The translations under genes were made by a program, and so were the position numbers. 33,286 bases of DNA from Cladochytrium replicatum. Its lineage: Eukaryota; Chytridiomycota; Chytridiomycetes; Cladochytriales; Cladochytriaceae. Below, in pieces: positions 1,405 through 29,705 of the stretch (position 1 is the first letter of the stretch; every line of letters begins with the position of its first letter). The notes beneath the pieces are model-generated. The model was not told the origin of the DNA. It was given only the letters and a program-made list of their open reading frames with translations, and searched no databases. The stretch is taken from NCBI GenBank assembly GCA_025526935.1, contig JAHLKD010000164.1, positions 1-33,286 on the forward strand, read 5' to 3'.

Positions 1405-1455
1405 CAGTTTCTTCCCTAGCTTATTATTATTTTCAGATCGGGTAGAAAACTATAG

Positions 1456-3573: not shown

Positions 3574-4172
3574 TGTTAAGTATTTCGATTGATGGACTTG
3601 GCCAATCCAGTCATTGATAGTACAAAAACACAAACGCCCGATATACAGAAATGTCACTCTTCACTGAGCAACATTTCTAACTATTGAACTAAAGCATATA
3701 GATGATGATCTATTACGAGTTTGGATACCTCCGGTTATTTCTTCATGGGTTATATTTATTGCAGCCATAGGTATAGTAAACTGTCATTACTTTTCTATCA
3801 TCCACTTGTAGAAGTGAAGCCCGGATCAGATCACAGCAAAGGTTTACATATGATTAACGCGTTCGTGGGAATCATGTGTGAGAACAATCCTGTTGAGGAG
3901 AGCTAGATCTCACGCACAGCTTAGCATGATTATGCTTCGCTACGCCTGTGAGAAGAAGAGTCAAACCTTATCGCTTCAATCCAGATCTTCCGGAAGGAAA
4001 AGCCAAAACGACAGTACACTTATTTAAGGAGCCTGTGGCGATACACACAAGGAGCATTCTCTTGCGCTAGTACTTGTGACTCGCAATCTTCTTTATTCAT
4101 CTCTTAGAAACATTAACCCGTGAATTAGCAACACACACAACCTGAGGATCCAGACCACAGCTTTGTTCAACA
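3574..4172 (+). repeat. LTR-A copy a (5' LTR of A1; probable hybrid)
   Basis: 599 bp with TGTTAAG and TTCAACA ends. At LTR positions 161/162/190/322/405 it reads g/t/a/g/a. It differs from A1's 3' LTR at 162 and 322 but shares with it alone the a at 405 (caatcc; all other copies have cgatcc). This fits a recombinant with foreign left and A1-like right parts. The left flank is tgcaa. Confidence 0.95.
4001..4045 (+). promoter_or_regulatory. Putative LTR-A promoter block
   Basis: agccaaaacgacagta, then a TATA-like cttatttaagg, then gagcctgtggcgata. Both flanking words recur, slightly changed, in the unrelated-looking LTR of family B (12811-12867), suggesting functional constraint, perhaps a core promoter or transcript signal. 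Promoter role is inferred. Confidence 0.45.
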
Positions 4173-4223
4173 CAATAGTTACGAATCGTTGCTTAACACA
4201 TTTCTTTGGACAACAACGACAAG
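4173..4223 (+). promoter_or_regulatory. A1 leader / primer-binding region
   Basis: The 51 bp between the 5' LTR and the gag ATG is where the minus-strand primer site should lie. It starts caatagttacgaatcg directly after the LTR and lacks the TGG expected for pairing with a tRNA 3' CCA end. An internal tRNA fragment, as known for Drosophila copia, or another primer is possible; I could not assign a tRNA. Confidence 0.4.
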
Positions 4224-6089
4224 ATGGGTTCAGGATCGAATGACACCACATCTTCGCGGCCGAAGCCATTCACCGGTAAAACGCTGCAGGATTTCGATCT
4301 GTACATGGAACAAGTGCAGACTTACGCAAACTTACGTGGCGGCGCTGGCACTATGCTTCTCCAAGAACCAATGGCTCTTCCTGATAATCCGAATTACGAG
4401 GCGGAAGGAAATCGCCCACAGCGTCCGATAGTCATCGCCGGAGCTGCTGGCGGAGCTGCTAACGAAGCACGAGCACAATGGGAAGCAGAACTACGTGAAC
4501 ATTTGGCGATCGTCACACACAACAGTCACTTACGTACGCAATATCGTGCTGAGATGCAAGATTACCGTGCACAACAAGCGGACAATAACGTCGCAGTTGG
4601 AATTCTATGCGAATGTTTCCCAAAACGCGACATGAATCGAGTCAGAGCTTATGCGTCAGCAAAAGGCAAAGTCGATGGACTTCGCCGAATTTTCAGTGCT
4701 GGCGGTCAAGCTCCGATCGAATCGTCTATGTGGGAGCAACGGCTGGTAGATCTGAAATGTACGAACGGTCAGTCGGCAGAAAGCGTTCAGCAGTTTGTGA
4801 CCGACCTCACTGAGTTATTCGAACTCAAACTGAACTCTTTACCGGACGAACTCGTAATCAAGGATCTACTAAACCGGTTAGTCGCAAAAATCACGATGCA
4901 GACAATTGAACTACGGACCCTCGTACCTTTTCTCGGAAAAATGATCACTTCTGCGTATGCCGAATGGGAACCGGCGTTAATACAAGATCCAATTGATGCT
5001 GCAAACCCGAATGCTCCGCGACCATTCCACCAAAAGCCAACGCATTACTTCGAAACAGTGTCAAATATCTTGACCGACCTAAACCAATTGGTCCAACTCA
5101 ACGTCACCATGGATGCCGGTGGGCCGAATGGGACAAAGAAGGCCATGAAGGCAAAGGCGAAGAAAGCGAAGGCGAAAGCGAAAGCCAAGGTTGCGAAGTC
5201 GGAGGATATTTGTACCTTGCATCCGAACTCATCTCACACCAATGCTCAATGCCGTAAGCAGGGTGCCTCGGGTGGCTCAGGCAGTAGCGGTGGGAGTAGC
5301 AGTTCCACTCGGACCAGGCAGTCGCAGGACTCCAGGTCGTCCACATCTTCTTCTGCAAAGAAGACAGATCTCACATGCAATTTCTGTGGCAAACGAGGAC
5401 ACAAGCAGTCGGCGTGTAAACGCTATCTCACTGCAAAGAGTCTTTGTTTAGACACGGATTTTCGTGCATTCATTGCCAGCCGTGGCGATGCAGGTGATGA
5501 TTCGTCGGAGGACGAATCTACCGCCAAACCGGTGTTGACCAAGAAGGTAATCTTTGACCTTACCCAACCTACTTCTGTTGATAAAGATGCTGACACATAC
5601 ATCGGAAATATGTTTTCGATAGTGAACGCACACTCGGCACAGAAGGTTGTCCGTGTACATGTTCAAGCAAAGGATCGTGTGGGTTTGCTTGATACAGGCG
5701 CAACTGTTTGGATGACACCTAATCGTCATGCCTTTAGTTCGCTGACGTATACGAATGACGAGGACGTGGTGGAACTAGCGGATAGTCATACAATTCCAGT
5801 TTGTGGTTTTGGAGATGTATCTGTAGTTTTACCCAATGGGCGAATTAAGATAATACACAACGCACTTTATGTTCCTGATCTCGAAGACACACTTGCATCA
5901 GTGTGTAGTATCATTGGAGACTCCGGGGACATTGTGAGTTTCACCAAAGACAAGGTTATCCTCACGCATGGTGATACGGATGAACACGTTATTATTGGGC
6001 GACGGGAAAGAGATTTGTACTATCTCTATGCTGATGTTAGTACCGTCGGAACTCACCAACCGCGGCATGCGATTGCTCAACTGAGCTAA
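4224..6089 (+). CDS. gag-pol: A1 Gag plus aspartic protease (first part of gag-pol)
   Basis: The ATG at 4224 is the first in-frame ATG after the LTR. The Gag N-terminal region (about residues 1-300) should form the capsid-like shell. An AK-rich basic stretch follows (nt 5144-5198), then a CX2HX4HX4C motif (nt 5211-5252, about residues 330-343), a Ser/Gly-rich linker, and a CX2CX4HX4C zinc knuckle (nt 5376-5417, about 385-398) expected to bind element RNA. The protease active site LLDTGATVW has its catalytic Asp at nt 5691-5693 (about residue 490). The frame ends at TAA 6087-6089 because of one extra t at 6082 relative to copy A2, where the same region reads through into integrase. Gag-pol would be about 1,727 codons if continuous, as is usual for copia elements. 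Confidence 0.93.
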   Translation: MGSGSNDTTSSRPKPFTGKTLQDFDLYMEQVQTYANLRGGAGTMLLQEPMALPDNPNYEAEGNRPQRPIVIAGAAGGAANEARAQWEAELREHLAIVTHNSHLRTQYRAEMQDYRAQQADNNVAVGILCECFPKRDMNRVRAYASAKGKVDGLRRIFSAGGQAPIESSMWEQRLVDLKCTNGQSAESVQQFVTDLTELFELKLNSLPDELVIKDLLNRLVAKITMQTIELRTLVPFLGKMITSAYAEWEPALIQDPIDAANPNAPRPFHQKPTHYFETVSNILTDLNQLVQLNVTMDAGGPNGTKKAMKAKAKKAKAKAKAKVAKSEDICTLHPNSSHTNAQCRKQGASGGSGSSGGSSSSTRTRQSQDSRSSTSSSAKKTDLTCNFCGKRGHKQSACKRYLTAKSLCLDTDFRAFIASRGDAGDDSSEDESTAKPVLTKKVIFDLTQPTSVDKDADTYIGNMFSIVNAHSAQKVVRVHVQAKDRVGLLDTGATVWMTPNRHAFSSLTYTNDEDVVELADSHTIPVCGFGDVSVVLPNGRIKIIHNALYVPDLEDTLASVCSIIGDSGDIVSFTKDKVILTHGDTDEHVIIGRRERDLYYLYADVSTVGTHQPRHAIAQLS

Positions 6090-6126
6090 AGCAGTAGCGG
6101 TATCCGCAGAAGGTCTCGATCAGTCG

Positions 6127-9100
6127 ATGGACTTTACGTCCGGTGTACGATCTTCTCACGCGATGGGTCTCGATGTAATGTCAGACAACAACATTCGTCA
6201 AACGAACGATGATGAATGTCAACGAGCATCTCAAGATACAGTTGGAGTGAGCACCAACTTATCGCCAGTGACAGTACACGAACTTGCAAAGTTACACCAG
6301 CAGTTTGGTCACATCCACTTACGGACAATCTTTCGAACGGCAGAGAAGCTCAACATCAAAATGCCCAAGGTTGAACCGGATGCATTCAATCTTGTCAACA
6401 AATCAATTATGCAGAATTGTTTGGTCTGTAGTCGCACGAAGCTGAAGCAGAAGCCGATTTATTCAACAATAAGTCGAGCTCCGAGGAAACTTTTCCGTCT
6501 GTTTTCCGATGTCGTACGTTTAATCTACGACGGACAGAAGAAGAGATATTGGCAGATCATTGTCGACGAACAACCTCGTTTCATCACAATCTACTTCCTG
6601 AATCGAAAGAGTGATGCGGTGGATAGTATGATTCGACATATCGCTGATGTGGAAAATCGCAATCACCCATTACACGTTGCTGAACTACGTTCCGATTCAG
6701 GAGAATTGATTACTAAACGGTTGATCCAATGGTGCAATACCAAGATTCCTCGCATCCGCGTCCACCCAGCTCCTCCGTCAGTAAAGGAACTCGATGGTCT
6801 ATCAGAGCGGAATATACAATCGATCAAGTATATGTCGGACGCGATGCTGCTACAAGCTGGACTACCACGAACACTTCAATTCGTGCAACTCTCCATCCTA
6901 TACGCTGCGGTCGTCAAGAACGCTACTTTCCATTCAGCTGTGAATGCGATTCCGTACTGTGCTTACCTTGACAAGCGGATAGATTTGGCAACTATCCACG
7001 CCTTTGGAACACTCGTTAGTTTGTGGATCTCACACGAACAAAGGTTGGCGCGCAGAATCCGAGACAAGTCTGAACTAGGTCTGTTTCTCGGATACAAGGG
7101 TGAAGACCTGAAGATCGTCATAGCACTCAATTTTCGGACAAACACAATAGGCGAATACTTCCATGTTACGTTCCACGAGGGAGTTTTTGTTGGTTATAAT
7201 CCTACCCGACAGTTACTCGACGATCTTACGGTACAATATCCACTGAAGGCCGGGACATATTTCGATGTTGATCAAATACCAACCGGGGATCAGGGGGTGC
7301 AAGAGACGACTGTTGAGTTTGTCTCAGACAATTTCCCGATTTCTACCGTTGCAGACGAAGAAATCGATGAGGATATAAACGACGACCCCATATATTACCG
7401 CTTAGAAGAAGCCGGTGACATGCATGTTGTTGAACATTTACATGGACTAGACGATGATGACCCAGACGATGCTGATTATGATCCAAATGCTGATTTATCG
7501 ACTCCACAATCCATTACTGAAGAATCTCCGAATTTGTCTTCCGTATCTCCTGTAGAGGAATATGATGCACAACTCGAAAGTGATCTTCAATTCATTGGAG
7601 AAGATGTCGACGAAGCATATGCAGCAAGAAAACGAAAACGTCAAGCAAGTGCAAATTTGTCGAACGCCAAAAGGAAACAAAATTCCTTGTTTACCCGGTC
7701 CGTTCCTAATATCGATTGGACCCTGAAGGCCGATTCCTCATATCCAACACAACCAATTGCGAATGGAAATATACGGACTGCACCAAAGACTCTTCGTGAG
7801 GCTTTATCACGATCCGATGAGGCTCCATTCTGGTTAGCGGCGATGAAGGAGGAAGTCACACAACTAGTCGGCAACAATACTTGGGCCGAAACGTTTTTAC
7901 CTGATGGACGGAATTTATTATCGGGCAAATGGGTTTTCACATATAAGCTTGACGAACATGGCAATATTACTCGATTCAAAGCACGTTGGGTCGTACGAGG
8001 ATTTTCACAGATTGAAGGATTGGATTTCGATGAAACCTATTCTCCAGTTACGAAAACGTCCACGATCCGTTTTCTGATTGCATTAGCAGCATTAGTCGGC
8101 ATGATCATATTCCAGTTTGATATCAAGGGTGCATATCTCAATGCGATACTGGAAGAAGAGAACTACGTCGAACTCCCTCATGGTTTCGGACGAGTAGATT
8201 TCCAGAATCGACCCATCGTCTGCAGACTTATCAAAAGTCTGTACGGTCTACACCAGGCAGCTCGAGAATGGTACAAAACTCTTTGGAAACAATATCTCAG
8301 TGTTGGTTTCGTGCGGAATATTGCAGACATCTGTCATTTCTGGCGATACAATCCAACAAATAATACCCGCGAACACACTACCGTTCATGTCGATGATATA
8401 CTACATTTTTCCACAGATCCTAACGCATATCATCGGTTTCAGACCGATTTGGAAACTTCGTTCACAGTAGGCAGTACTTCGAAGGCGAAATGGATTCTGA
8501 AAATGGAGTTATTGCAGACAACGGAAGGATATTTCCTTAGCAATGCATTGTACGTAAAGAAGATTCTCGAAGAAGCGAATTTATGGGGTACCAACATCAA
8601 ACCGACCAAAACACCGATGTCAAAATCATATATCTTTGATGAGACCACACCAACACTGTCCGATGCCGAGGCAACACAATTTCGATCAATGTTAATGAAG
8701 ATATCGTACGTGGCGACTAAGACACGACCGGATATTTCATACGCAGTCAATATTTTGGCACAACATCAGATTGATCCTCGACAGTCAGAATCAAAGGCTC
8801 TCTATCGATTACAACGATATTTACTCAGTACTTGGGATTACGGTTTACACTATACACGGACTGGTATCACGTCTCCGATACTAAGACCCGACGGTCTCTA
8901 CATGTTTGATTCGGCTAACAACCCACAAGGTTATGCCGATGCAGACTGGGCGGGCGATGCAGATAGATACTCACGAACCGGTTACGTGGTAATGTTCGCT
9001 AATGCGGCAATCAGTTGGCAGTCGATTCGACAACAGACTATTGCAGCCTCGTCGTCGGAAGCCGAACTGTATGCGCTGAACGAACTATCGCGTGAGATGA

Positions 9101-9408
9101 AGTGGATGAAAAATCTTATGACGGGTATTGGAATTACGTCGTTCAATCCGCTCCGTTTATGGCAAGACAATCAATCCACCGAGTCTATCGCAAACAATCT
9201 GTTCAACAACAAACGGACCAAACACATGGACGTTCGCGAGAGATTTGTGAATCTCCAAGTTGAACAGAAACATCAGGAGTTACACCATATGGATACTTCT
9301 GATATGATCGCGGACATCTTAACTAAACCTCTTGGAAGTAAATTATACCTTAAACACAGGGGCTCGTTGGGGCTAGTCAGTCAGTCTTCACTTAATATAC
9401 TATCTTGA
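6127..9408 (+). CDS. gag-pol: A1 Pol: integrase, reverse transcriptase, RNase H
   Basis: The integrase zinc domain has LHQQFGHIH and CLVC (nt 6292-6429). The catalytic triad is Asp 6508-6510, Asp 6694-6696 (RSDSGE) and Glu 6805-6807 (LSERN), with 61 and 36 residues between, normal for copia. An acidic linker (DDDDPDDADYD) is followed by a bipartite basic motif (nt 7627-7678), a likely nuclear localisation signal. Reverse transcriptase has FDIKGAYLNA (Asp 8119-8121), KSLYGLHQAAREW and HVDD (8386-8397), His replacing the usual Tyr or Phe. RNase H has DADW (8938-8949), SSEAEL and WQDN. All 1,093 codons are open. The ATG at 6127 is only the first ATG after the frameshift; the real translation unit starts at 4224 and this part was made as a fusion. 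Confidence 0.95.
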   Translation: MDFTSGVRSSHAMGLDVMSDNNIRQTNDDECQRASQDTVGVSTNLSPVTVHELAKLHQQFGHIHLRTIFRTAEKLNIKMPKVEPDAFNLVNKSIMQNCLVCSRTKLKQKPIYSTISRAPRKLFRLFSDVVRLIYDGQKKRYWQIIVDEQPRFITIYFLNRKSDAVDSMIRHIADVENRNHPLHVAELRSDSGELITKRLIQWCNTKIPRIRVHPAPPSVKELDGLSERNIQSIKYMSDAMLLQAGLPRTLQFVQLSILYAAVVKNATFHSAVNAIPYCAYLDKRIDLATIHAFGTLVSLWISHEQRLARRIRDKSELGLFLGYKGEDLKIVIALNFRTNTIGEYFHVTFHEGVFVGYNPTRQLLDDLTVQYPLKAGTYFDVDQIPTGDQGVQETTVEFVSDNFPISTVADEEIDEDINDDPIYYRLEEAGDMHVVEHLHGLDDDDPDDADYDPNADLSTPQSITEESPNLSSVSPVEEYDAQLESDLQFIGEDVDEAYAARKRKRQASANLSNAKRKQNSLFTRSVPNIDWTLKADSSYPTQPIANGNIRTAPKTLREALSRSDEAPFWLAAMKEEVTQLVGNNTWAETFLPDGRNLLSGKWVFTYKLDEHGNITRFKARWVVRGFSQIEGLDFDETYSPVTKTSTIRFLIALAALVGMIIFQFDIKGAYLNAILEEENYVELPHGFGRVDFQNRPIVCRLIKSLYGLHQAAREWYKTLWKQYLSVGFVRNIADICHFWRYNPTNNTREHTTVHVDDILHFSTDPNAYHRFQTDLETSFTVGSTSKAKWILKMELLQTTEGYFLSNALYVKKILEEANLWGTNIKPTKTPMSKSYIFDETTPTLSDAEATQFRSMLMKISYVATKTRPDISYAVNILAQHQIDPRQSESKALYRLQRYLLSTWDYGLHYTRTGITSPILRPDGLYMFDSANNPQGYADADWAGDADRYSRTGYVVMFANAAISWQSIRQQTIAASSSEAELYALNELSREMKWMKNLMTGIGITSFNPLRLWQDNQSTESIANNLFNNKRTKHMDVRERFVNLQVEQKHQELHHMDTSDMIADILTKPLGSKLYLKHRGSLGLVSQSSLNILS

Positions 9409-9535
9409 ACGACCGGCTGGCGATGTCCATACAACTCACCTTTATTTCAATAGAATATCAACTTCAGCATTTACAGAAAGTTATGATCGGTTGAGTGATA
9501 CTCTCGGTTGTACCTATCTAATGACTGAGGGGGTG
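9409..9535 (+). promoter_or_regulatory. A1 3' untranslated region and polypurine tract
   Basis: 127 bp between the stop and the 3' LTR. It ends with gagggggtg (9527-9535) immediately before TGTTAAG, the expected place of the plus-strand primer for reverse transcription. The same tract precedes the A2 3' LTR and, reversed, follows the LTR of A4. Confidence 0.75.
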
Positions 9536-10134
9536 TGTTAAGTATTTCGATTGATGGACTTGGCCAATCCAGTCATTGATAGTACAAAAACACAAACGCC
9601 CGATATACAGAAATGTCACTCTTCACTGAGCAACATTTCTAACTATTGAACTAAAGCATATAGATGATGATCTATTACGAGTTTGGATACCTCCGGGTAT
9701 TTCTTCATGGGTTATATTTATTGCAGCCATAGGTATAGTAAACTGTCATTACTTTTCTATCATCCACTTGTAGAAGTGAAGCCCGGATCAGATCACAGCA
9801 AAGGTTTACATATGATTAACGCGTTCGTGGGAATCATGTGTGAGAACAATCCTGTTCAGGAGAGCTAGATCTCACGCACAGCTTAGCATGATTATGCTTC
9901 GCTACGCCTGTGAGAAGAAGAGTCAAACCTTATCGCTTCAATCCAGATCTTCCGGAAGGAAAAGCCAAAACGACAGTACACTTATTTAAGGAGCCTGTGG
10001 CGATACACACAAGGAGCATTCTCTTGCGCTAGTACTTGTGACTCGCAATCTTCTTTATTCATCTCTTAGAAACATTAACCCGTGAATTAGCAACACACAC
10101 AACCTGAGGATCCAGACCACAGCTTTGTTCAACA
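9536..10134 (+). repeat. LTR-A copy b (3' LTR of A1)
   Basis: 599 bp, haplotype g/g/a/c/a at LTR positions 161/162/190/322/405. It is followed by gatga, where the family B sequence resumes. The undisturbed B2 copy has gatga once at the same place (22405-22415 region), which identifies the insertion site. Confidence 0.95.
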
Positions 10135-12256
10135 GATGATAGTGCTAACACCTCATCTGATGAGGAGTTGGATCCCAATCAACGATTTTATCATCGAATG
10201 GATATCTCACAAATGCATGTTACTCCTATGTCCCAACATAATTCAAATGTTGATGACAAGCACGACACCACCAACGACTATAACCATTCGTTAAACATGA
10301 ACGATGACACTTATGTACCACTTTCTGTACAACACGTACAAGAACAAAATGAAGATGATTCCCAAAGTGATTTGGAAGATTTACAATGGATTGGTGAAGA
10401 AGATGACAACGATTATGGATTTGTTGCACACAAAGCCAAACGTCGCAAACTTAAAGGCAAACAACCTATGGTTACTCCAACAAACAGATTTCATCCCCAG
10501 CGAAGACATCCTTTGTTGAGACGTAATATCCCCAATGTCAATGTAAATGAGAAAGCAAAATCGAGTACACCCGACATTCCTATACCTCAAGGACACTTGA
10601 GAAGTATTCCCAAAACAGTCCAGGAAGCTATGTCGCGACCTGATGAATGGCCATACTGGCTTGCAGCCATGTGTGAAGAAAATCAACAACTTATCAATTT
10701 GGGAACATGGAACAAACGCATCTTGCCAAATGGGAACAACCTTCTCACTGGCAAATGGGTTTATTCATACAAACTTGATGAAGATGGCAACAGCATCCGA
10801 TTCAAGGCACGATGGGTAGTTAGAGGGTTCTCCCAGATACAGGGAATGGATTTCGACAAAACCTATTCTCCTGTGGCAAAAACCACTACAATTCGATTAC
10901 TAGTTGCTCTTGCTGCAATTGTCAAATTACACATCTATCAATTTGACATTACAGGAGCATATCTCAATGCATCACTTGAGCAAGATGTTTATGTTGAAAT
11001 GCCCCATGGATTTACAGAGACTGACGAATCTGGCAATCCATTAGTTTGTAATCTTGTCAAAAGCTTATTTGGTTTACATCAAGCTGCTAGAGAATGGTAC
11101 AAATGCCTCTGGGCAAAATATGAAGACATGGGATACATCCGTGATCTTTCAGATGCTTGTCATTTCTGGCAAATGAAACCATCTACTCACAGTTCCACTG
11201 TGAAAATACGTGAACACACTACTGTTCATGTAGATGATATTCTTCATTTCTCTCCAGACCCAAATGGCTACCAAGACTTCATGGATTGCTTGAATTCCTC
11301 ATTCAAGGTTGGAAGTCACTCTACAGGCAAATGGATTCTGAAAATGCAATTGATCAAAACTACTCACGGTTATTTCATAACCAATGCTCAATATGCAAAG
11401 GAAATATTGCAGAGATTGAAATTATGGGAATCCAATCTTAAACCAGCCAAAACACCTATTTCTTCTCACTACAAACATGACACAAGCTTGCCTATTTTAT
11501 CCAAAAATGATGCAACTATTTTCCGCTCGGAACTCATGAAAATCTCGTACCTAGCTACAAAGACCAGACCTGATTTATCTTATGCTGTCAATGTCTTGGC
11601 ACAACATCAGGTTGAACCACGAGTTTGCGAACAAAAGGCACTAGCTCGCCTGCATCGTTACTTATTGGGAACATGGGACTATGGTTTGCATTACACATGC
11701 AATAACATACCCACTCCCAACGTACACTCTGACGGTGTATATGAGTTTGCATCAAATGAACACATCCCTAATGGGATCTGCTGATGCAGACTGGGCAAAT
11801 GATCCTGCTCGCTATTCCAGGACAGGATATGTTGTAATGTTTGCCAATGCAGCTGTTTGCTGGCAGTCAACAAAGCAACAGGTTATAACTTGCTCTTCCA
11901 CTGAAGCAGAGTTATATGCATTGAATGAATTATCACGTGAGATGAAGTGGATGAAAAACCTCATGGCAACCATTGGTATTTCATCCAAAAGTAAGCCCAT
12001 GATCCTCTGGCAAGATAATACCTCTACGCAGTCTATTGCCAATGACCTGCTTAATGATCACAGAACTAAACACATGGATGTTCGAGAAAAGTTTGTGAAT
12101 CTTCAAATTGAGCAGAAGCAGCAGGAACTCAGAGATATTGATACTGAGAACCAAATTGCTGATATTTTCACAAAACCCTTGACATTCAAATTATTTTCAA
12201 AGTTCACACGCGCACTTGGTCTTACACGTCAATCTGATTTGACCCTTGTTGACTAA
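10135..12256 (+). pseudogene. gag-pol: B1 Pol fragment: linker, reverse transcriptase, RNase H
   Basis: The frame is open from the junction at 10135 to TGA 11782-11784. It carries the acidic LQWIGEE motif (10381-10416), a basic NLS-like KAKRRKLKGK (10428-10464), FDITGAYLNA, KSLFGLHQAAREW (Tyr to Phe relative to B2) and HVDD at 11227-11238. An extra a near 11770 (ccctaatggg, against ccctatggg in B2) shifts the frame at the start of RNase H. The remainder (DADW, SSTEAEL, WQDN) is open in the next frame to TAA 12254-12256. It lacks its N-terminal half and cannot encode a full polyprotein. Codons are more AT-rich than in family A. Confidence 0.9.
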
Positions 12257-12591
12257 TACATACATTACCAACAAACAGACGTGCGACTCAACGCTCATAC
12301 CAATATCCTCATTGTCTACCGCAGCTTTGACTGCGGGGGTGTATTGATGCATGCACATATATGGAACTAGCTACCCCAGTCTTCATCCACTACCGACACT
12401 GAGGGGAAATAGCCTTACCAGAGACGTCTGGGACAAGTTCATGCGTAATCATACATTACATGAAAGAACTGGCATTTCTAACTATTGGTCATGAAGACAT
12501 CCTCCTTTACTCATTGGAATCTAGTAGAGTTCTGCGAGTGATCACGCGTTTGAGAAAGAATGTGATGCTAATCAGTTTGCTGCTGACAGTT

Positions 12592-12720
12592 ATATCATAC
12601 TCGAGTACATCTCGTATGATATTAATGCAAGGTACTACATATTCATTTCTCATAGAGAACATGTCATTGTAGACAAGATTATAGCTAATCTTCATGTTCT
12701 GCTCACAATGGTTATTGTGA
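12592..12720 (+). repeat. Hairpins in LTR-B
   Basis: Perfect stems: atatcatac/gtatgatat (12592-12600 with 12614-12622) and tcacaat/attgtga (12703-12709 with 12714-12720, loop ggtt). A third, ctctc/gagag, follows at 12741-12755. All recur in the other two LTR-B copies. Confidence 0.7.
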
Positions 12721-12805
12721 ACGATCACTGGGATCTATATCTCTCTATTCGAGAGAATAATGTTTATATCAGATATTTCCATATATCTATAGCCACAGGT
12801 TAATT

Positions 12806-12867
12806 ATAAAAGCCGAAACGACAGTATATTTGAATTGTTTGCACAATTCAAAGAGCCTGTGGCGATA
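12806..12867 (+). promoter_or_regulatory. Putative LTR-B promoter block with hairpin
   Basis: A TATA-like ttataaaag leads into agccgaaacgacagta, then a perfect 9-bp hairpin tttgaattg/caattcaaa (12829-12837 with 12844-12852), then gagcctgtggcgata (12853-12867). The flanking words match LTR-A 4001-4045. Function is inferred from position and conservation between families. Confidence 0.45.
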
Positions 12868-13187
12868 TGAGATTTCGGGTGGCTGTGGCGCAAGAGCGTG
12901 ATTGGAGAAACACGAAACTCTGCACACTCACAGATCAACCTGAGGACTATCTCTAGCGCAAGTCCCAGATCAGCAGCACTAAAACTGATCAAATCACATC
13001 GCCCTCAAACCAAACTTCGACAGAGCACAATGGGAAGCAGAACTACGTGAACATTTGGCGATCGTCACACACAACAGTCACTTACGTACGCAATATCGTG
13101 CTGAGATGCAAGATTACCGTGCACAACAAGCGGACAATAACGTCGCAGTTGGAATTCTATGCGAATGTTTCCCAAAACGCGACATGA

Positions 13188-13786
13188 TGTTAAGTATTTC
13201 GATTGATGGACTTGGCCAATCCAGTCATTGATAGTACAAAAACACAAACGCCCGATATACAGAAATGTCACTCTTCACTGAGCAACATTTCTAACTATTG
13301 AACTAAAGCATATAGATGATGATCTATTACGAGTTTGGATACCTCCAGTTATTTCTTCATGGGTTATATTTATTGCGGCCATAGGTATAGTAAACTGTCA
13401 TTACTTTTCTATCATCCACTTGTAGAAGTGAAGCCCGGATCAGATCACAGCAAAGGTTTACATATGATTAACGCGTTCGTGGGAATCATGTGTGAGAACA
13501 ATCCTGTTGAGGAGAGCTAGATCTCACGCACAGCTTAGCATGATTATGCTTCGCTACGCCTGTGAGAAGAAGAGTCAAACCTTATCGCTTCGATCCAGAT
13601 CTTCCGGAAGGAAAAGCCAAAACGACAGTACACTTATTTAAGGAGCCTGTGGCGATACACACAAGGAGCATTCTCTTGCGCTAGTACTTGTGACTCGCAA
13701 TCTTCTTTATTCATCTCTTAGAAACATTAACCCGTGAATTAGCAACACACACAACCTGAGGATCCAGACCACAGCTTTGTTCAACA
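13188..13786 (+). repeat. Solo LTR-A copy c, target duplication catga
   Basis: 599 bp, forward. catga lies at 13183-13187 and 13787-13791; A1 has it once here (gcgacatgaatcg). A perfect duplication around one LTR shows an insertion later reduced by LTR-LTR recombination. Haplotype a/t/g/g/g, as in copy f. Confidence 0.96.
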
Positions 13787-14506
13787 CATGAATCGAGTCA
13801 GAGCTTATGCGTCAGCAAAAGGCAAAGTCGATGGACTTCGCCGAATTTTCAGTGCTGGCGGTCAAGCTCCGATCGAATCTTCTATGTGGGAGCAACGGCT
13901 GGTAGATCTGAAATGTACGAACGGTCAGTTGGCAGAAAGCGTTCAGCAGTTTGTGACCGACCTCACTGAGTTGTTCGAACTCAAACTGAACTCTTTACCG
14001 GACGAACTCGTAATCAAGGATCTACTAAACCGGTAAGTCGCAAAAATCACGATGCAGACAATTGAACTACGGACCCTCGTACCTTTTCTCGGAAAAATGA
14101 TCACTTCTGCGTATGCCGAATGGGAACCGGCGTTAATACAAGATCCAATTGATGCTGCAAATCCGAATGCTCCGCGACCATTCCACCAAAAGCCAACGCA
14201 TTACTTCGAAACAGTGTCAAATATCTTGACTGACCTCAACCAATTGGTCCAACTCAACGTCACCATGGATGCCGGTGGGCCTAATGGGACAAAGAAGGCC
14301 ATGAAGGCAAAGGCGAAGAAAGCGAAGGCGAAAGCGAAAGCCAAGGTTGCGAAGTCGGAGGATATTTGTACCTTGCATCCGAACTCGTCTCACACCAATG
14401 CTCAATGCCGTAAGCAAGGTGCCTCGGGTGGCTCAGGCAGTAGCGGTGGGAGTAGCAGTTCCACTTGGACCAGGCAGTCGCAGGACTCCAGGTCGTCCAC
14501 ATCTTC

Positions 14507-19169: not shown

Positions 19170-19296
19170 ACGACCGGCTGGCGATGTCCATACAACTCAC
19201 CTTTATTTCAATAGAATATCAACTTCAGCATTTACAGAAAGTTATGATCGGTTGAGTGATACTCTCGGTTGTACCTATCTAATGACTGAGGGGGTG

Positions 19297-19895
19297 TGTT
19301 AAGTATTTCGATTGATGGACTTGGCCAATCCAGTCATTGATAGTACAAAAACACAAACGCCCGATATACAGAAATGTCACTCTTCACTGAGCAACATTTC
19401 TAACTATTGAACTAAAGCATATAGATGATGATCTATTACGAGTTTGGATACCTCCGGGTATTTCTTCATGGGTTATATTTATTGCGGCCATAGGTATAGT
19501 AAACTGTCATTACTTTTCTATCATCCACTTGTAGAAGTGAAGCCCGGATCAGATCACAGCAAAGGTTTACATATGATTAACGCGTTCGTGGGAATCATGT
19601 GTGAGAACAATCCTGTTGAGGAGAGCTAGATCTCACGCACAGCTTAGCATGATTATGCTTCGCTACGCCTGTGAGAAGAAGAGTCAAACCTTATCGCTTC
19701 GATCCAGATCTTCCGGAAGGAAAAGCCAAAACGACAGTACACTTATTTAAGGAGCCTGTGGCGATACACACAAGGAGCATTCTCTTGCGCTAGTACTTGT
19801 GACTCGCAATCTTCTTTATTCATCTCTTAGAAACATTAACCCGTGAATTAGCAACACACACAACCTGAGGATCCAGACCACAGCTTTGTTCAACA
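19297..19895 (+). repeat. LTR-A copy e (3' LTR of A2)
   Basis: 599 bp after the G-rich tract gagggggtg. Haplotype g/g/g/g/g. The flank agaat belongs to family B gag. Confidence 0.95.
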
Positions 19896-20185
19896 AGAAT
19901 TTCTGTAGGAAACGCAAACTAGCCAAAAGTTTGAATGATGAGGAATGGAAACAGATAAAAGCAGCTCGTGCTTCCTCCTCAACATCCCAGAACATGGATA
20001 TCGATTCTCAGGAATCAGAACCTTCCAGCAAGCATTGAAGAGTACCAACTGCAATCTACACATAAATGCCAAACCTCTCGGTTTGATTGACTCTGGTGCT
20101 ACTGCTTGGATGACTCCAGACAGACATGCATTCAAGAATTTATTTTACGTTAATGATGCAGGAGATGTTTACTTGGCAGACAATC
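19896..20185 (+). pseudogene. gag-pol: B2 end of Gag and start of protease
   Basis: The first frame reads NFCRKRKLAKSLNDEEW, resembling sequence just after the first Cys of a zinc knuckle, and ends at a TGA near 20036. A second frame then gives the protease active site LIDSGATAWM (Asp-Ser-Gly) and DRHAF, aligning with LLDTGATVWM of family A. A single-base frame change lies between. The sequence stops at the target duplication caatc of the next solo LTR. Confidence 0.8.
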
Positions 20186-20784
20186 TGTTAAGTATTTCGA
20201 TTGATGGACTTGGCCAATCCAGTCATTGATAGTACAAAAACACAAACGCCCGATATACAGAAATGTCACTCTTCACTGAGCAACATTTCTAACTATTGAA
20301 CTAAAGCATATAGATGATGATCTATTACGAGTTTGGATACCTCCAGTTATTTCTTCATGGGTTATATTTATTGCGGCCATAGGTATAGTAAACTGTCATT
20401 ACTTTTCTATCATCCACTTGTAGAAGTGAAGCCCGGATCAGATCACAGCAAAGGTTTACATATGATTAACGCGTTCGTGGGAATCATGTGTGAGAACAAT
20501 CCTGTTGAGGAGAGCTAGATCTCACGCACAGCTTAGCATGATTATGCTTCGCTACGCCTGTGAGAAGAAGAGTCAAACCTTATCGCTTCGATCCAGATCT
20601 TCCGGAAGGAAAAGCCAAAACGACAGTACACTTATTTAAGGAGCCTGTGGCGATACACACAAGGAGCATTCTCTTGCGCTAGTACTTGTGACTCGCAATC
20701 TTCTTTATTCATCTCTTAGAAACATTAACCCGTGAATTAGCAACACACACAACCTGAGGATCCAGACCACAGCTTTGTTCAACA
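20186..20784 (+). repeat. Solo LTR-A copy f, target duplication caatc
   Basis: 599 bp forward. caatc lies at 20181-20185 and 20785-20789. It splits the protease of B2 between ...YLADN and HPIPIKGYGD. Haplotype a/t/g/g/g, the same as copy c. Confidence 0.96.
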
Positions 20785-22512
20785 CAATCATCCCATTCCT
20801 ATTAAAGGCTATGGAGATATTGCACTTGTTTTGTCAAATGGTTCAATAAAACACATTCAAAATGCACTTTTTGTTCCCGATTTAGAGGATACACTTATAT
20901 CTGTCTATAGCATCATCGGGGATGAAGGTGATATAGTCAGTTTTACCAAAGACAAAGTCTATTTGTCAAACAAAGGAACTGAACAATGTGTTACCATTGG
21001 TTTAAGACGTGGAGGTTTATATTATCTTCATGGAAGTTTGGATACTACTAATCCATTACTTAAACACTCTTCCAAAATAGGTGCAGCTATTTTGACGAAT
21101 CTTTCTAATTCTGCACTCTCTGTTGGCAAACAGAATGTTTTACCTGGTACCACTACAAACACTGCCCAAGAGCAGCAGACAACCACGTCGGGTGTAAGGT
21201 TTGACACAGTGAAGGACAACAATGTTTTCCCAAAAGATTCTAACAAAACTAGAAATTACGGGGGTGAAGTTTTAGACGGAGCTTCATCTGCAACATTAAG
21301 TCTATACTCCCAAACAATGGCTGATAATGGAGTAAACAACGTTTCAGCTGTGACCATCAACAAATTAGCTAGATTACACCAGCAATTTGGTCACATACAT
21401 TTGCGGAAAATCCTGCAAACTTTACATTCTCTGGGAAAGAAACTGCCCAAAGTCAGGAGTGATGCACTTGATTTTGTTAACTCGTCTATTTTACAGAACT
21501 GCATAATTTGCAATCAGACTAAGGCTGTACAAACTCCAATTTACTCGACGCTAAGTCCAGCACTGAGGAAATTATATCGCCTACATACTGATGCAGTACC
21601 AATTGTCAGAAATGGCAAAACAATAGGTCACTGGCAGATTATCGTAGATGAATACAGTTCTCACATCACAATCTACTTCTTGCAACGAAAGAGCGAAGCC
21701 TCTGATAGTATGCTAAGACACATCGCAGATGTTGAAAATAGATTTCTGCCACTTCACGTCTATGAAGTGAGATCCGATTCTGGAGAACTATTGTCAAACC
21801 AATTCTTGACTTGGTGTAGGAACAAGGTACCACACCACGCATACATGCGCATCCTTCACCTGCATCAGTCAAAGAGCTGAATGGTCTTGCTGAACGGAAT
21901 GTCCGTTCAATGAAAGAGATGTACAAGTCTATGCTGAAAACAGCTGGTCTCCCACATACTTTACAGTTCATTTGCCATCCTTTATGCTGCGACTGTCAAA
22001 AATGGTGTTTACCATTCTAGAACTAAGAATGTACCACATGCTGTTTACTTTGACAAGCTGATTGATCCGGCAATCATTCACACCTTTGGTACCCTGGTTA
22101 GTCTCTGGATCTCTCCAGAACAAAGGTCTAGTCGCAAAGTATCAGAGAAGTCAGAGCTAGGACTATTTCTGGGTTATAAGGGTGAAGATATGAAAATCAT
22201 TCATGCTTTGAATCTTAATACCAAACGCATAAGCGAATATTTTCATTTTACTTTTCATGAGGGAGTATTTGTTGGCTTAAACCCAACATCACAAACTTTA
22301 AATGACCTCACCAAACACTATCCTATTCCTCAGGGTCAACATTTTGATATTTCAAATTTACCTGATATGAATAGCGATAATGGCAATACTACAGACTCAG
22401 ATTCTGATGATAGCGCTAACACCTCATCTGATGAGGAGTTGGATCCCAACCAACGATTTTATCATCGAATGGATATCTCACAAATGCATGTTACTCCTAT
22501 GTCCCAACATGA
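20785..22512 (+). pseudogene. gag-pol: B2 protease end, integrase and acidic linker
   Basis: Open from 20786 to TGA at 21878-21880. It covers the protease C-terminus (ALFVPDLEDTL), a spacer, the integrase zinc domain (LHQQFGHIHL, CIIC), the first catalytic Asp (LHTDAV) and the second (RSDSGEL). A small rearrangement near 21835-21850 shifts the frame. The Glu motif (NGLAERN) is in the next frame, and near 21970 the original frame returns (LYAATVKNG, GLFLGYKGED, FHEGVFVG). It ends in the acidic linker at the catga of the next solo LTR. The gatga target used by A1 in B1 lies about 100 bp earlier and is undisturbed here. Confidence 0.87.
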
Positions 22513-23111
22513 TGTTGAACAAAGCTGTGGTCTGGATCCTCAGGTTGTGTGTGTTGCTAATTCACGGGTTAATGTTTCTAAGAGATGAATAAAGAAGATT
22601 GCGAGTCACAAGTACTAGCGCAAGAGAATGCTCCTTGTGTGTATCGCCACAGGCTCCTTAAATAAGTGTACTGTCGTTTTGGCTTTTCCTTCCGGAAGAT
22701 CTGGATCGAAGCGATAAGGTTTGACTCTTCTTCTCACAGGCGTAGCGAAGCATAATCATGCTAAGCTGTGCGTGAGATCTAGCTCTCCTGAACAGGATTG
22801 TTCTCACACATGATTCCCACGAACGCGTTAATCATATGTAAACCTTTGCTGTGATCTGATCCGGGCTTCACTTCTACAAGTGGATGATAGAAAAGTAATG
22901 ACAGTTTACTATACCTATGGCCGCAATAAATATAACCCATGAAGAAATAACTGGAGGTATCCAAACTCGTAATAGATCATCATCTATATGCTTTAGTTCA
23001 ATAGTTAGAAATGTTGCTCAGTGAAGAGTGACATTTCTGTATATCGGGCGTTTGTGTTTTTGTACTATCAATGACTGGATTGGCCAAGTCCATCAATCGA
23101 AATACTTAACA
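22513..23111 (-). repeat. Solo LTR-A copy g, reverse, target duplication catga
   Basis: 599 bp reverse. catga lies at 22508-22512 and 23112-23116. Haplotype a/t/g/c/g. It is one of the two LTRs whose misaligned recombination explains the downstream tandem duplication. Confidence 0.95.
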
Positions 23112-25221
23112 CATGATTCAAATGTTGATGACGAGCACGATACCACCAACGACTATAACCATTCGTTAAACATGAACGATGACACTTATGTACCACTTTC
23201 TGTACAACACGTACAAGAACAAAATGAAGATGATTCCCAAAGTGATTTGGAAGATTTACAATGGATTGGTGAAGATGATGACAACGATTATGGATTTGTT
23301 GCACACAAAGCCAAACGTCGCAAACTTAAAGGCAAACAACCTATGGTTACTCCAACAAACAGATTTCATCCCCAGCAAAGACATCCTTTGTTGAGACGTA
23401 ATATCCCCAATGTCAATGTAAATGAGAAAGCAAAATCGAGTACACCCGACATTACTATACCTCAAGGACACTTGAGAAGTATTCCCAAAACAGTCCAGGA
23501 AGCTATGTCGCGACCTGATGAATGGCCATACTGGCTTGCAGCCATGTGTGAAGAAAATCAACAACTTATCAATTTGGGAACATGGAACAAACGCATCTTG
23601 CCAAATGGGAACAACCTTCTCACTGGCAAATGGGTTTATTCATACAAACTTGATGAAGATGGCAACATCATCCGATTCAAGGCACGATGGGTAGTTAGAG
23701 GGTTCTCCCAGATACAGGGAATGGATTTCGACAAAACCTATTCTCCTGTGGCGAAAACCACTACAATTCGATTACTAGTTGCTCTTGCTGCAATTGTCAA
23801 ATTACACATCTATCAATTTGACATTACAGGAGCATATCTCAATGCATCACTTGAGGAAGATGTTTATGTTGAAATGCCTCATGGATTTACAGAGACTGAC
23901 GAATCTGGCAATCCATTAGTTTGTAATCTTGTCAAAAGCTTATATGGTTTACATCAAGCTGCTAGAGAATGGTACAAATGCCTCTGGGCAAAATATGAAG
24001 ACATGGGATACATCCGTGATCTTTCAGATGCTTGTCATTTCTGGCAAATGAAATCATCTACTCACAGTTCCACTGTGAAAATACGTGAACACACTACTAT
24101 TCATGTAGATGATATTCTTCATTTCTCTCCAGACCCAAATGGCTACCAAGACTTCATGGATGGCTTGAATTCCTCATTCAAGGTCGGAAGTCACTCTACA
24201 GCCAAATGGATTCTGAAAATGCAATTGATCAAAACTACTCAGGGCTATTTCATAACCAATGCTCAATATGCAAAGGAAATATTGCAGAGATTGAAATTAT
24301 GGGAATCCAATCTTAAACCAGCCAAAACACCTATTTCTTCTCACTACAAACATGACACAAGCTTGCCTATTTTATCCAAAAATGATGCAACTATTTTTCG
24401 CTCGGAACTCATGAAAATCTCGTACCTAGCTACAAAGACCAGACCTGATTTATCTTATGCTGTCAATGTCTTGGCACAGCATCAGGTTGAACCACGAGTT
24501 TGCGAACAAAAGGCACTAGCTCGCCTGCATCGTTACTTATTGGGAACATGGGACTATGGTTTGCATTACACATGCAATAACATACCCACTCCCCAACGTA
24601 CACTCTGACGGTGTATATGAGTTTGCATCAAATGAACACATCCCTATGGGATATGCTGATGCAGACTGGGCAAATGATCCTGCTCGCTATTCCAGGACAG
24701 GATATGTTGTAATGTTTGCCAATGAAGCTGTTTGCTGGCAGTCTACAAAGCAACAGGTTATAACTTGCTCTTCCACTGAAGCAGAGTTATATGCATTGAA
24801 TGAATTATCACGTGAGATGAAGTGGATGAAAAACGTCATGGCAACCATTGGTATTTCATCCAAAAGTAAGCCCATGATCCTCTGGCAAGATAATACCTCT
24901 ACACAGTCTATTGCCAATGACCTGCTTAATGATCACAGAACTAAACACATGGATGTTCGAGAAAAGTTTGTGAATCTTCAAATTGAGCAGAAGCAGCAGG
25001 AACTCAGAGATATTGATACTGAGAACCAAATTGCTGATATTTTCTCAAAACCCTTGACATTCAAATTATTTTCAAAATTCACACACGCACTTGGTCTTAC
25101 ACGTCAATCTGATTTGAACCTTGTTGACTATACATACATTACCAACAAACAGACGTGCGACTCAACGCTCATACCAATATCCTCATTGTCTACCGCAGCT
25201 TTGACTGCGGGGGTGTGTTGA
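23112..25221 (+). pseudogene. gag-pol: B2 linker, reverse transcriptase and RNase H
   Basis: Open from the target site to TGA at 24606-24608. It has the LQWIGED motif, NLS-like KAKRRKLKGK, FDITGAYLNA, KSLYGLHQAAREW and HVDDILHF. An extra c near 24592 (cactcccc, against cactccc in B1) shifts RNase H into another frame. A one-base deletion at the normal stop (gttgactatac; B1 and B3 have gttgactaatac) extends that frame a few bases into the LTR, to 25221. The apparent start inside the reverse LTR (a GTG at 23028) is an artefact of the insertion. Confidence 0.9.
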
Positions 25222-25896
25222 TGCATGCACATATATGGAACTAGCTACTCCAGTCTTCATCCACTACCGACACTGAGGGGAAATAGCCTTACCAGAGACG
25301 TCTGGGACAAGTTCATGCGTAATCATACATTACATGAAAGAACTGGCATTTCTAACTATTGGTCATGAAGACATCCTCCTTTACTCATTGGAATCTAGTA
25401 GAGTTCTGAGAGTGATCACGCGTTTGAGAAAGAATGTGATGCTAATCAGTTTGCTGCTGACAGTTATATCATACTCGAGTACATCTCGTATGATATTAAT
25501 GCAAGGTACTACATACTTATTTCTCATAGAGAACATGTCATTGTAGACAAGATTATAGCTAATCTTCATGTTCTGCTCACAATGGTTATTGTGAACGATC
25601 ACTGGGATCTATATCTCTCTATTCGAGAGAATAATGTTTATATTAGATATTTCCATATATCTATAGCCACAGGTTAATTATAAAAGCCGAAACGACAGTA
25701 TATTTGAATTGTTTGCACAATTCAAAGAGCCTGTGGCGATATGAGATTTCGGGTGGCTGTGGCGCAAGAGCGTGATTGGAGAAACACGAAACTCTGCACA
25801 TACACAGATCAACCTGAGGACTATCTCTAGCGCAAGTCCCAGATCAGCAGCACTAAAACTGATCAAATCACATCGCCCTCAAACCAAACTTCGACA
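25216..25896 (+). repeat. LTR-B copy 2 (3' LTR of B2)
   Basis: 681 bp, TGTTGATGC to TTCGACA, preceded by ctgcgggggtg. It contains the same promoter-like block and hairpins as copy 1. Confidence 0.95.
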
Positions 25897-26108
25897 TTTT
25901 TGTTGGTTATAATCCTACCCGACAGTTACTCGACGATCTTACGGTACAATATCCACTGAAGGCCGGGACATATTTCGATGTTGATCAAATACCAACCGGG
26001 GATCAGGGGGTGCAAGAGACGACTGTTGAGTTTGTCTCAGACAATTTCCCGATTTCTACTGTTGCAGATAAAGAAATCGATGAGGATATGAACGAGGACC
26101 CCATATAT
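25897..26108 (+). mobile_element. Fragment of Copia element A3 (integrase-RT linker)
   Basis: 212 bp matching A1 7184-7395 without length change: end of integrase to the acidic linker. It carries several substitutions against A1 and A2, more per base than those two show between themselves, so it looks older. It is bounded by LTR-B on the left and by a reverse LTR-A on the right at target tatat. In the nesting scheme A3 is the outermost host element. Confidence 0.88.
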
Positions 26109-26707
26109 TGTTGAACAAAGCTGTGGTCTGGATCCTCAGGTTGTGTGTGTTGCTAATTCACGGGTTAATGTTTCTAAGAGATGAATTAAGAAGATTGCGA
26201 GTCACAAGTACTAGCGCAAGAGAATGCTCCTTGTGTGTATCGCCACAGGCTCCTTAAATAAGTGTACTGTCGTTTTGGCTTTTCCTTCCGGAAGATCTGG
26301 ATCGAAGCGATAAGGTTTGACTCTTCTTCTCACAGGCGTAGCGAAGCATAATCATGCTAAGCTGTGCGTGAGATCTAGCTCTCCTCAACAGGATTGTTCT
26401 CACACATGATTCCCACGAACGCGTTAATCATATGTAAACCTTTGCTGTGATCTGATCCGGGCTTCACTTCTACAAGTGGATGATAGAAAAGTAATGACAG
26501 TTTACTATACCTATGGCTGCAATAAATATAACCCATGAAGAAATAACCGGAGGTATCCAAACTCGTAATAGATCATCATCTATATGCTTTAGTTCAATAG
26601 TTAGAAATGTTGCTCAGTGAAGAGTGACATTTCTGTATATCGGGCGTTTGTGTTTTTGTACTATCAATGACTGGATTGGCCAAGTCCATCAATCGAAATA
26701 CTTAACA
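26109..26707 (-). repeat. LTR-A copy h (duplication-joint hybrid)
   Basis: 599 bp reverse. Its left flank is tatat (A3), as for copy i, and its right flank is catga (family B), as for copy g, so it has no target duplication of its own. Haplotype g/t/a/g/g and the private aattaag match copy i, so the exchange lies in LTR positions 1-160 (26548-26707). Confidence 0.93.
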
Positions 26708-28727
26708 CATGATTCAAATGTTGATGACGAGAACGATACCACCAACGACTATAACCATTCGTTAAACATGAACGATGACACTTATGTACCACTTTCTGTA
26801 CAACACGTACAAGAACAAAATGAAGATGATTCCCAAAGTGATTTGGAAGATTTACAATGGATTGGTGAAGATGATGACAACGATTATGGATTTGTTGCAC
26901 ACAAAGCCAAACGTCGCAAACTTAAAGGCAAACAACCTATGGTTACTCCAACAAACAGATTTCATCCCCAGCAAAGACATCCTTTGTTGAGACGTAATAT
27001 CCCCAATGTCAATGTAAATGAGAAAGCAAAATCGAGTACACCCGACATTACTATACCTCAAGGACACTTGAGAAGTATTCCCAAAACAGTCCAGGAAGCT
27101 ATGTCGCGACCTGATGAATGGCCATACTGGCTTGCAGCCATGTGTGAAGAAAATCAACAACTTATCAATTTGGGAACATGGAACAAACGCATCTTGCCAA
27201 ATGGGAACAACCTTCTCACTGGCAAATGGGTTTATTCATACAAACTTGATGAAGATGGCAACATCATCCGATTCAAGGCACGATGGGTAGTTAGAGGGTT
27301 CTCCCAGATACAGGGAATGGATTTCGACAAAACCTATTCTCCTGTGGCGAAAACCACTACAATTCGATTACTAGTTGCTCTTGCTGCAATTGTCAAATTA
27401 CACATCTATCAATTTGACATTACAGGAGCATATCTCAATGCATCACTTGAGGAAGATGTTTATGTTGAAATGCCTCATGGATTTACAGAGACTGACGAAT
27501 CTGGCAATCCATTAGTTTGTAATCTTGTCAAAAGCTTATATGGTTTACATCAAGCTGCTAGAGAATGGTACAAATGCCTCTGGGCAAAATATGAAGACAT
27601 GGGATACATCCGTGATCTTTCAGATGCTTGTCATTTCTGGCAAATGAAATCATCTACTCACAGTTCCACTGTGAAAATACGTGAACACACTACTATTCAT
27701 GTAGATGATATTCTTCATTTCTCTCCAGACCCAAATGGCTACCAAGACTTCATGGATGGCTTGAATTCCTCATTCAAGGTCGGAAGTCACTCTACAGCCA
27801 AATGGATTCTGAAAATGCAATTGATCAAAACTACTCAGGGCTATTTCATAACCAATGCTCAATATGCAAAGGAAATATTGCAGAGATTGAAATTATGGGA
27901 ATCCAATCTTAAACCAGCCAAAACACCTATTTCTTCTCACTACAAACATGACACAAGCTTGCCTATTTTATCCAAAAATGATGCAACTATTTTTCGCTCG
28001 GAACTCATGAAAATCTCGTACCTAGCTACAAAGACCAGACCTGATTTATCTTATGCTGTCAATGTCTTGGCACAGCATCAGGTTGAACCACGAGTTTGCG
28101 AACAAAAGGCACTAGCTCGCCTGCATCGTTACTTATTGGGAACATGGGACTATGGTTTGCATTACACATGCAATAACATACCCACTCCCCAACGTACACT
28201 CTGACGGTGTATATGAGTTTGCATCAAATGAACACATCCCTATGGGATATGCTGATGCAGACTGGGCAAATGATCCTGCTCGCTATTCCAGGACAGGATA
28301 TGTTGTAATGTTTGCCAATGCAGCTGTTTGCTGGCAGTCTACAAAGCAACAGGTTATAACTTGCTCTTCCACTGAAGCAGAGTTATATGCATTGAATGAA
28401 TTATCACGTGAGATGAAGTGGATGAAAAACGTCATGGCAACCATTGGTATTTCATCCAAAAGTAAGCCCATGATCCTCTGGCAAGATAATACCTCTACAC
28501 AGTCTATTGCCAATGACCTGCTTAATGATCACAGAACTAAACACATGGATGTTCGAGAAAAGTTTGTGAATCTTCAAATTGAGCAGAAGCAGCAGGAACT
28601 CAGAGATATTGATACTGAGAACCAAATTGCTGATATTTTCTCAAAACCCTTGACATTCAAATTATTTTCAAAATTCACACACGCACTTGGTCTTACACGT
28701 CAATCTGATTTGAACCTTGTTGACTAA
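26708..28727 (+). pseudogene. gag-pol: B3 (duplicate) linker, reverse transcriptase and RNase H
   Basis: Second copy of the 23112 segment. Open to TGA 28202-28204, then shifted by the same extra c near 28188, so this mutation predates the duplication. RNase H (DADW, SSTEAEL, WQDN) ends at the normal TAA, 28725-28727, which unit 1 has lost by a one-base deletion. It lacks gag, protease and integrase. Confidence 0.9.
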
Positions 28728-28812
28728 TACATACATTACCAACAAACAGACGTGCGACTCAACGCTCATACCAATATCCTCATTGTCTACCGCAGCTTTG
28801 ACTGCGGGGGTG

Positions 28813-29493
28813 TGTTGATGCATGCACATATATGGAACTAGCTACTCCAGTCTTCATCCACTACCGACACTGAGGGGAAATAGCCTTACCAGAGACGTCT
28901 GGGACAAGTTCATGCGTAATCATACATTACATGAAAGAACTGGCATTTCTAACTATTGGTCATGAAGACATCCTCCTTTACTCATTGGAATCTAGTAGAG
29001 TTCTGAGAGTGATCACGCGTTTGAGAAAGAATGTGATGCTAATCAGTTTGCTGCTGACAGTTATATCATACTCGAGTACATCTCGTATGATATTAATGCA
29101 AGGTACTACATACTTATTTCTCATAGAGAACATGTCATTGTAGACAAGATTATAGCTAATCTTCATGTTCTGCTCACAATGGTTATTGTGAACGATCACT
29201 GGGATCTATATCTCTCTATTCGAGAGAATAATGTTTATATTAGATATTTCCATATATCTATAGCCACAGGTTAATTATAAAAGCCGAAACGACAGTATAT
29301 TTGAATTGTTTGCACAATTCAAAGAGCCTGTGGCGATATGAGATTTCGGGTGGCTGTGGCGCAAGAGCGTGATTGGAGAAACACGAAACTCTGCACATAC
29401 ACAGATCAACCTGAGGACTATCTCTAGCGCAAGTCCCAGATCAGCAGCACTAAAACTGATCAAATCACATCGCCCTCAAACCAAACTTCGACA
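28813..29493 (+). repeat. LTR-B copy 3 (duplicate)
   Basis: 681 bp; I saw no difference from copy 2. It is followed again by ttttt and the A3 fragment. Confidence 0.95.
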
Positions 29494-29705
29494 TTTTTGT
29501 TGGTTATAATCCTACCCGACAGTTACTCGACGATCTTACGGTACAATATCCACTGAAGGCCGGGACATATTTCGATGTTGATCAAATACCAACCGGGGAT
29601 CAGGGGGTGCAAGAGACGACTGTTGAGTTTGTCTCAGACAATTTCCCGATTTCTACTGTTGCAGATAAAGAAATCGATGAGGATATGAACGAGGACCCCA
29701 TATAT
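29494..29705 (+). mobile_element. A3 fragment, duplicate
   Basis: Same 212 bp as 25897-26108, ending at tatat before the reverse LTR-A. This copy keeps the original junction with A4. Confidence 0.88.

Follow-up and report, generated by a model that had tools for sequence, protein, structure and literature searches.

A possibly composite Copia element and the missing left halves of a retrotransposon nest in Cladochytrium replicatum

How can a nest of retrotransposons, each inserted into the next, come to show only right halves? The question is raised by contig JAHLKD010000164.1 (hereafter C164) in the genome assembly GCA_025526935.1 of the chytrid Cladochytrium replicatum, where elements of two Copia families, A and B, are inserted into one another and every left half is missing. 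The window analysed here is the entire contig, 33,286 bp of an assembly of 50.5 Mb in 198 contigs, and the right flank of the nest was therefore sought on other contigs. From sequence comparison alone, we put at roughly 0.7 the probability that the innermost element, A1, combines two A copies, through either a chimeric assembly or ectopic recombination, which would explain the missing left halves.

Self-comparison of the window identifies nine copies, 599 bp each, of the long terminal repeat (LTR) of family A, LTR-A. Read rightward, the chain runs from A1 through gatga into B1, through gagca into A2, through agaat into B2, through ttttt into A3 and through tatat to A4, with each switch lying exactly at an LTR end (Table 1). 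For the right-hand switches a second copy of the family in question carries the target site uninterrupted, confirming the four junctions (gatga, gagca, agaat and ttttt) that had been read in the initial annotation. The nest of A1 in B1 in A2 in B2 in A3 is genuine, of a known kind and an ordinary phenomenon. The 5-mers flanking A1 are unlike, TGCAA on the left versus GATGA on the right; gagca and ttttt are seen on one side only, their left halves being absent from the window, and are unproved as duplications. The DNA to the left of A1, previously described as host-like, consists instead of part of a dispersed hAT-type transposon followed by 16 bases of a reversed A element; unique host DNA is ruled out here by the presence of positions 2700-3557 at no fewer than 40 places in the genome.

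A fitting partner for the left end of A1 lies on another contig. The end of the LTR followed by TGCAA (GCTTTGTTCAACATGCAA) has a single exact match in the 50.5-Mb assembly, on C113, where the sequence after TGCAA continues the same reversed A site as the 16-base left flank of the window. Joined together, the two flanks make up one site that is uninterrupted in other A copies. The C113 LTR is identical to the one at 3574 (Table 1), from which the other eight LTR copies of the window differ by 2-4. Head-to-tail A units sharing an LTR are found at C113:1-8463 and at C7:781930-790671. An LTR-A followed by tgcaa had been predicted as the far end of A3, with host DNA beyond it, and the LTR with its flank does exist; what it ends, though, is a young A, and C113 continues with the reversed A element. 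A3 is ruled out as the element that ends at this flank, as the left unit on C113 lacks 12 of 16 A3 marker differences (defined on C154, beyond A-position 8120 and past the noisy end of C113), and the four that it keeps occur in other copies too.

The place at which the two copies may meet is indicated by a further contig, C196, which repeats the left end of the window and extends further left. The two contigs show 1 difference over 4,209 bases in 1543-5751 and 20 over 1,291 in 5752-7042, and without the last 450 bases there are still 8 differences in 841, compared with 1 in 4,209. Nine of the 20 differences after 5752 recur in other A copies, and four features (6758A, 6837A, 6869A and a deletion at 6966) are common to C196 and the right unit of C113 and absent from the window. 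So abrupt a divergence means that either the window or C196 passes from one A copy to another at about 5082-5751. Flank pairing with C113 suggests that C196 is the likelier continuation and that the window is the composite.

A sequence of events consistent with these observations would begin with a young A inserted at TGCAA in a reversed A element, beside a hAT transposon. Through A1, the right halves of the nest would then have become attached to the left end of that other insertion, with the two A copies meeting inside A1 at about 5082-5751, such that one switch between elements would remove all four left halves and no deletion between the LTRs of A3 and A1 would be involved. The idea of a single event for all four losses survives in this form, as one switch suffices; the event originally named, recombination between the 5' LTRs of A3 and A1, does not, the switch appearing inside A1 and not in an LTR. 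The initial annotation was probably right to count one event, but wrong about its partner, place and product.

At the other end of the nest, the open TATAT site also has a partner. An LTR followed by TATAT and by A from 7397 has one match at up to two mismatches in the 50.5 Mb, at C154:8309-8333, with 1 mismatch. Family A on C154 covers 7397 to 8558 and 8716 to 9278 and then stops, and from A-position 9278 to the contig end (57,565 bp) there is no LTR-A match (of at least 60 bp and 80%). The A3 piece on C154 is about as distant from A1 as that in the window, the A3 pieces being about 2% from A1, and the two, which do not overlap, would represent one copy. The expectation that the rest of A3 would be met to the right is therefore borne out in part: the tatat partner carries more of A3, and it ends at 9278 without an LTR-A. 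At C154:1-8318, the element at TATAT is interrupted at GTTGG by another A, and the stretch of C154 before it does not contain the rest of the interrupted outer A. A4 in the window passes the GTTGG position uninterrupted, so that A4 is not simply the C154 element.

Unlike flanks are not peculiar to A1. They were surveyed across the assembly from 40 complete LTR matches (40 of 587 candidates were scored, a sample that leans to young copies), and 28 of these 40 places were examined, C80 and C26 being left out as the contig ended first. At the expected distance a 3' LTR is present for 19 of the 28 and absent for nine; two of the 19 are dimers, running into another A interior, and were excluded. 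Among the remaining 17 full-length copies, flanks are unlike in 12 and matching in five, one of which (C40) lies in a 97-bp array, where a match says less. Solo-like LTRs in the larger stretches examined number 11 (C79:122003 was dropped, its left flank being cut by the stretch examined), with six matching and five not; one of the five cannot be judged, leaving 4/10 with unlike flanks, one of them explained by a tandem duplication within the window. An effect of read length on unlike flanks was considered and set aside, the contrast between full-length (12/17) and solo copies (4/10) not being significant (P 0.22). In 3 of the 12 unlike copies both flanks lie no more than 400 bases apart in one target family, compared with 0.92 expected from permutation (P 0.04, with a threshold chosen after seeing the data and target families labelled by hand), which is a hint of real local exchange. 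Six pairs of equal 5-mers connect different contigs, and the three that involve the window have an empty site elsewhere. LTRs shared between two units occur three times in the larger stretches and in 2/19 surveyed copies, one of which is the same C7 dimer. As to location, 27 of the 28 A copies surveyed have a 5' flank within A, B or hAT sequence.

The survey shows that composite-looking copies are common, be they the work of cells or of the assembler. With unlike flanks this common in the assembly, no special deletion is needed to account for those of A1. One may go further and propose that family A is almost confined to clusters of A, B and hAT sequence, with exchange so frequent that most surveyed full-length copies have swapped flanks; this we regard as rather unlikely, and, if true, the clusters would be recombination hot zones in which the halves of nests are reshuffled between loci.

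Several observations weigh against a composite A1. That the two TGCAA LTRs are identical counts for little, as window 3574-4200 (627 bases) is identical at 12 or more further places in the genome, C196 included, among the candidates scored. C196 could itself be composite; it and the right unit of C113 differ elsewhere (e.g. at 4245, 4706, 5006, 6070 and 6082), and the left end it shares with the window is not uniform, the array at the contig end (window 1-1249) differing from C196 at 38 places. Contig ends that look rich in errors (C113, C154) inflate the count of differences after 5752. The other three of the six equal 5-mer pairs have no empty site, lie in different targets and look like chance. 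In favour of a composite, left junctions at gatga, ttttt and gagca gave no match at up to two mismatches in the whole assembly; against it, that of B, agaat and LTR does exist, in one exact copy under the same limit (C7:763398-763423), at the same B position as the right end of A2, albeit in older A and B unlike A2 and B2. As a site for the missing left halves C7 was rejected, its junction not fitting A2 and B2: the A there has 43 differences from A1 that are not in A2, A2 has 13 that the C7 copy does not share (A 4471-7256), and the B there is inserted at A 5648 instead of the ttttt site. Furthermore, LTR-A, gatga and B meet again at C20:574300-574332, at the same B position as the right end of A1 and with an older LTR; B there has 34 mismatches in 1,521 columns relative to B1, and its left flank is reversed A. 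With this second gatga junction, insertion sites must be allowed to recur.

If A1 is nevertheless a composite, just over half of that probability falls to a chimeric assembly join in the 6.5-kb repeat and a little under half to real ectopic or unequal recombination. The former, in which the assembler, inside a near-identical 6.5-kb A repeat, may have left the TGCAA locus and entered the nest, is a tentative choice at somewhat less than even odds. It accords with the single left end and two continuations of C196 and C164, with the unlike flanks of 12/17 full-length copies, and with the fitting flanks that three A ends of the window find on C113, C154 and C7, for each of which an empty site exists elsewhere; the lack of a significant contrast between full-length and solo copies (P 0.22) tells against it. 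The unlike flanks of short solo LTRs (4/10, one explained by the tandem duplication) favour real recombination over misassembly, as would the occurrence of shared-LTR dimers and the 3/12 copies with near flanks (P 0.04, at the post hoc threshold). A real crossover, ectopic (inter-locus) or unequal, between the TGCAA element and A1 would mean that an exchanged form (C164) and unexchanged forms (C196, C113) were both sequenced. This is possible though on the unlikely side, requiring two forms of one locus that are 1 base apart in 4.2 kb. Moreover, 36030-39700, the stretch read further along the 167-kb contig C113, has no A, B or hAT match, and a simple deletion from the C113 site to the nest would have to cross other DNA.

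Two explanations dispense with a composite A1. Were A inserting independently at preferred sites, the partner flanks on other contigs would be coincidental. Sites are indeed used repeatedly: gatga in B on C164 and C20, one hAT site common to C63 and C24 and one A site to C17 and C3, and the 5' flank on C108 ends at A 5896, inside the TGCAA site, in the opposite orientation. Coincidence is nonetheless improbable, for the LTR end with TGCAA (exact) and the LTR with TATAT and A (up to two mismatches) have one match each in 50.5 Mb, at precisely the window's open sites. Very unlikely is the originally proposed deletion, in which A3 would be the outermost element, inserted at TGCAA, and recombination of its 5' LTR with that of A1 would have removed the four left halves at once. 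The TGCAA and TATAT partners exist, the gatga, ttttt and gagca left junctions are missing, and the 3,597-bp tandem duplication suggests LTR-LTR exchange nearby, all as this deletion would have it; yet the right half of A3 on C154 has no 3' LTR, the C113 element ending at TGCAA is distinct from A3, the switch appears inside A1, and the TGCAA LTR pair is identical whereas the pieces of A3 lie some 2% away from A1.

Table 1. Coordinates of features in the window (C164)
Feature	Position	Strand	Remarks
3' part of dispersed hAT-type DNA transposon	1..3557	+	97-bp tandem array at about 1-1122; 415-amino-acid open reading frame at 2010-3257
A0rev, 16 bases of reversed A element	3558..3573	-	ends in 5-mer TGCAA; reverse complement of A1 5893-5908
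A1 LTR, LTR-A of TGCAA insertion	3574..4172	+	599/599 identical to C113:7865-8463 and to several other genomic LTRs
A1 interior, Copia gag-pol	4173..9535	+	Pol_BBD and RVT_2 matches
Putative switch interval in A1, TGCAA copy (as C196) to gatga copy	5082..5751		abrupt divergence of C196
A1 3' LTR	9536..10134	+	right flank GATGA, in B1
B1 right half including 3' LTR	10135..13022	+	begins with GATGA; ends at GAGCA of A2
A2 right part, A coordinates 4471-10134	13023..19895	+	begins with GAGCA; right flank AGAAT; holds two solo LTRs
Solo LTR in A2	13188-13786		CATGA/CATGA flanks
Solo LTR in A2, reversed	14507-15105		TCTTC/TCTTC flanks
B2 right part	19896..25896	+	begins with AGAAT; ends at TTTTT of A3; holds two solo LTR-A
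Solo LTR-A in B2	20186-20784		CAATC/CAATC flanks
Solo LTR-A in B2, reversed	22513-23111		CATGA/CATGA flanks
A3 fragment, A coordinates 7184-7396	25897..26108	+	begins with TTTTT; 5 differences from A1
Tandem duplicate of 22513-26108	26109..29705		unequal LTR-LTR exchange probable
A4 3' LTR and interior	29706..33286	-	cut by contig end; TATAT to its left at 29701-29705

The remaining features of the window carry traces of exchange and insertion of their own. The four solo LTRs (13188, 14507, 20186 and 22513) all have matching 5-bp duplications. The 3,597-bp tandem duplication (22513-26108 and 26109-29705) comprises an LTR, the end of B2 and the A3 piece; with the next LTR taken in, its two copies align over 4198 bp with 6 mismatches and 1 gap. 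It probably arose by unequal LTR-LTR exchange between the solo LTR and that of A4, the middle LTR having TATAT and CATGA as its two flanks, as expected of such an exchange.

Copies of the repeat to the left of A1 end at ..CCGAACCTTA, and the element as a whole ends in TAAGG..CCTTA, ends of a type typical of hAT transposons. The part of the transposon that lies on C196 matches Dimer_Tnp_hAT (PF05699; 4.7e-20), and one hAT copy on C113 is flanked on both sides by the 8-bp duplication GTGGTAAT. The copy shared by C196 and C164 has no 8-bp duplication: its flank on the C196 side is reversed B (94% across some 300 bases at the contig end) and that on the window side reversed A, so that this copy, too, has unlike flanks. 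Its 415-amino-acid open reading frame has no Pfam match at E 0.01. Within window 1-1378, the 97-bp unit forms a tandem array with a spacing of 97 bp and also occurs inverted at 1161-1378.

Assignment of both families to Copia rests on their RVT_2 reverse transcriptase in a Pfam search (A 3.9e-49, B 4e-44). Upstream of RVT_2 in A there is a SH3_retrovirus match of 24.6 bits, under its cut-off of 27, and no integrase core match was obtained at E 0.01 in that search. Family A has TG..CA LTRs and a 5-bp duplication, with 5-mers that match in 5 full-length copies and 6 solo LTRs and are unlike in 12 and 4, respectively. The LTR of family B, about 680 bp as read from both ends of one B copy on C113, starts with TG and ends with CA. 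That copy, C113:12582-19327, is reversed and has both LTRs, with unlike 5-bp flanks (GACCC/TGTGA) in this one B copy looked at.

More broadly, the locus illustrates how a tidy evolutionary story drawn from one contig can be tested by means of target duplications and empty sites across an assembly, and it serves as a warning that nested young retrotransposons may be wrongly joined. Should the exchanges prove real, this genome would be well suited to measuring recombination between retrotransposon copies.

Set against known systems, the elements of the window are largely familiar. The transposon to the left of A1 resembles hAT elements in its 8-bp duplication, C-terminal dimerisation domain and TAAGG..CCTTA ends, and departs from them in its 97-bp tandem arrays and in the 415-amino-acid open reading frame without a Pfam match. 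Among the products of homologous unequal recombination described in PMC7251063 are solo LTRs that may or may not have duplications, intact elements that lack them, and recombined elements in which an LTR has element interior on both sides. The unlike flanks of full-length and solo copies and the shared-LTR dimers on C113 and C7 are of the same kind; what differs is their high frequency here, for part of which assembly error may account. With nested Ty1/copia clusters the nest shares its TG..CA LTRs, 5-bp duplications, Copia-type reverse transcriptase and mutual insertion, and nothing substantial sets it apart, the A copies compared being mostly 0.3-2% from one another.

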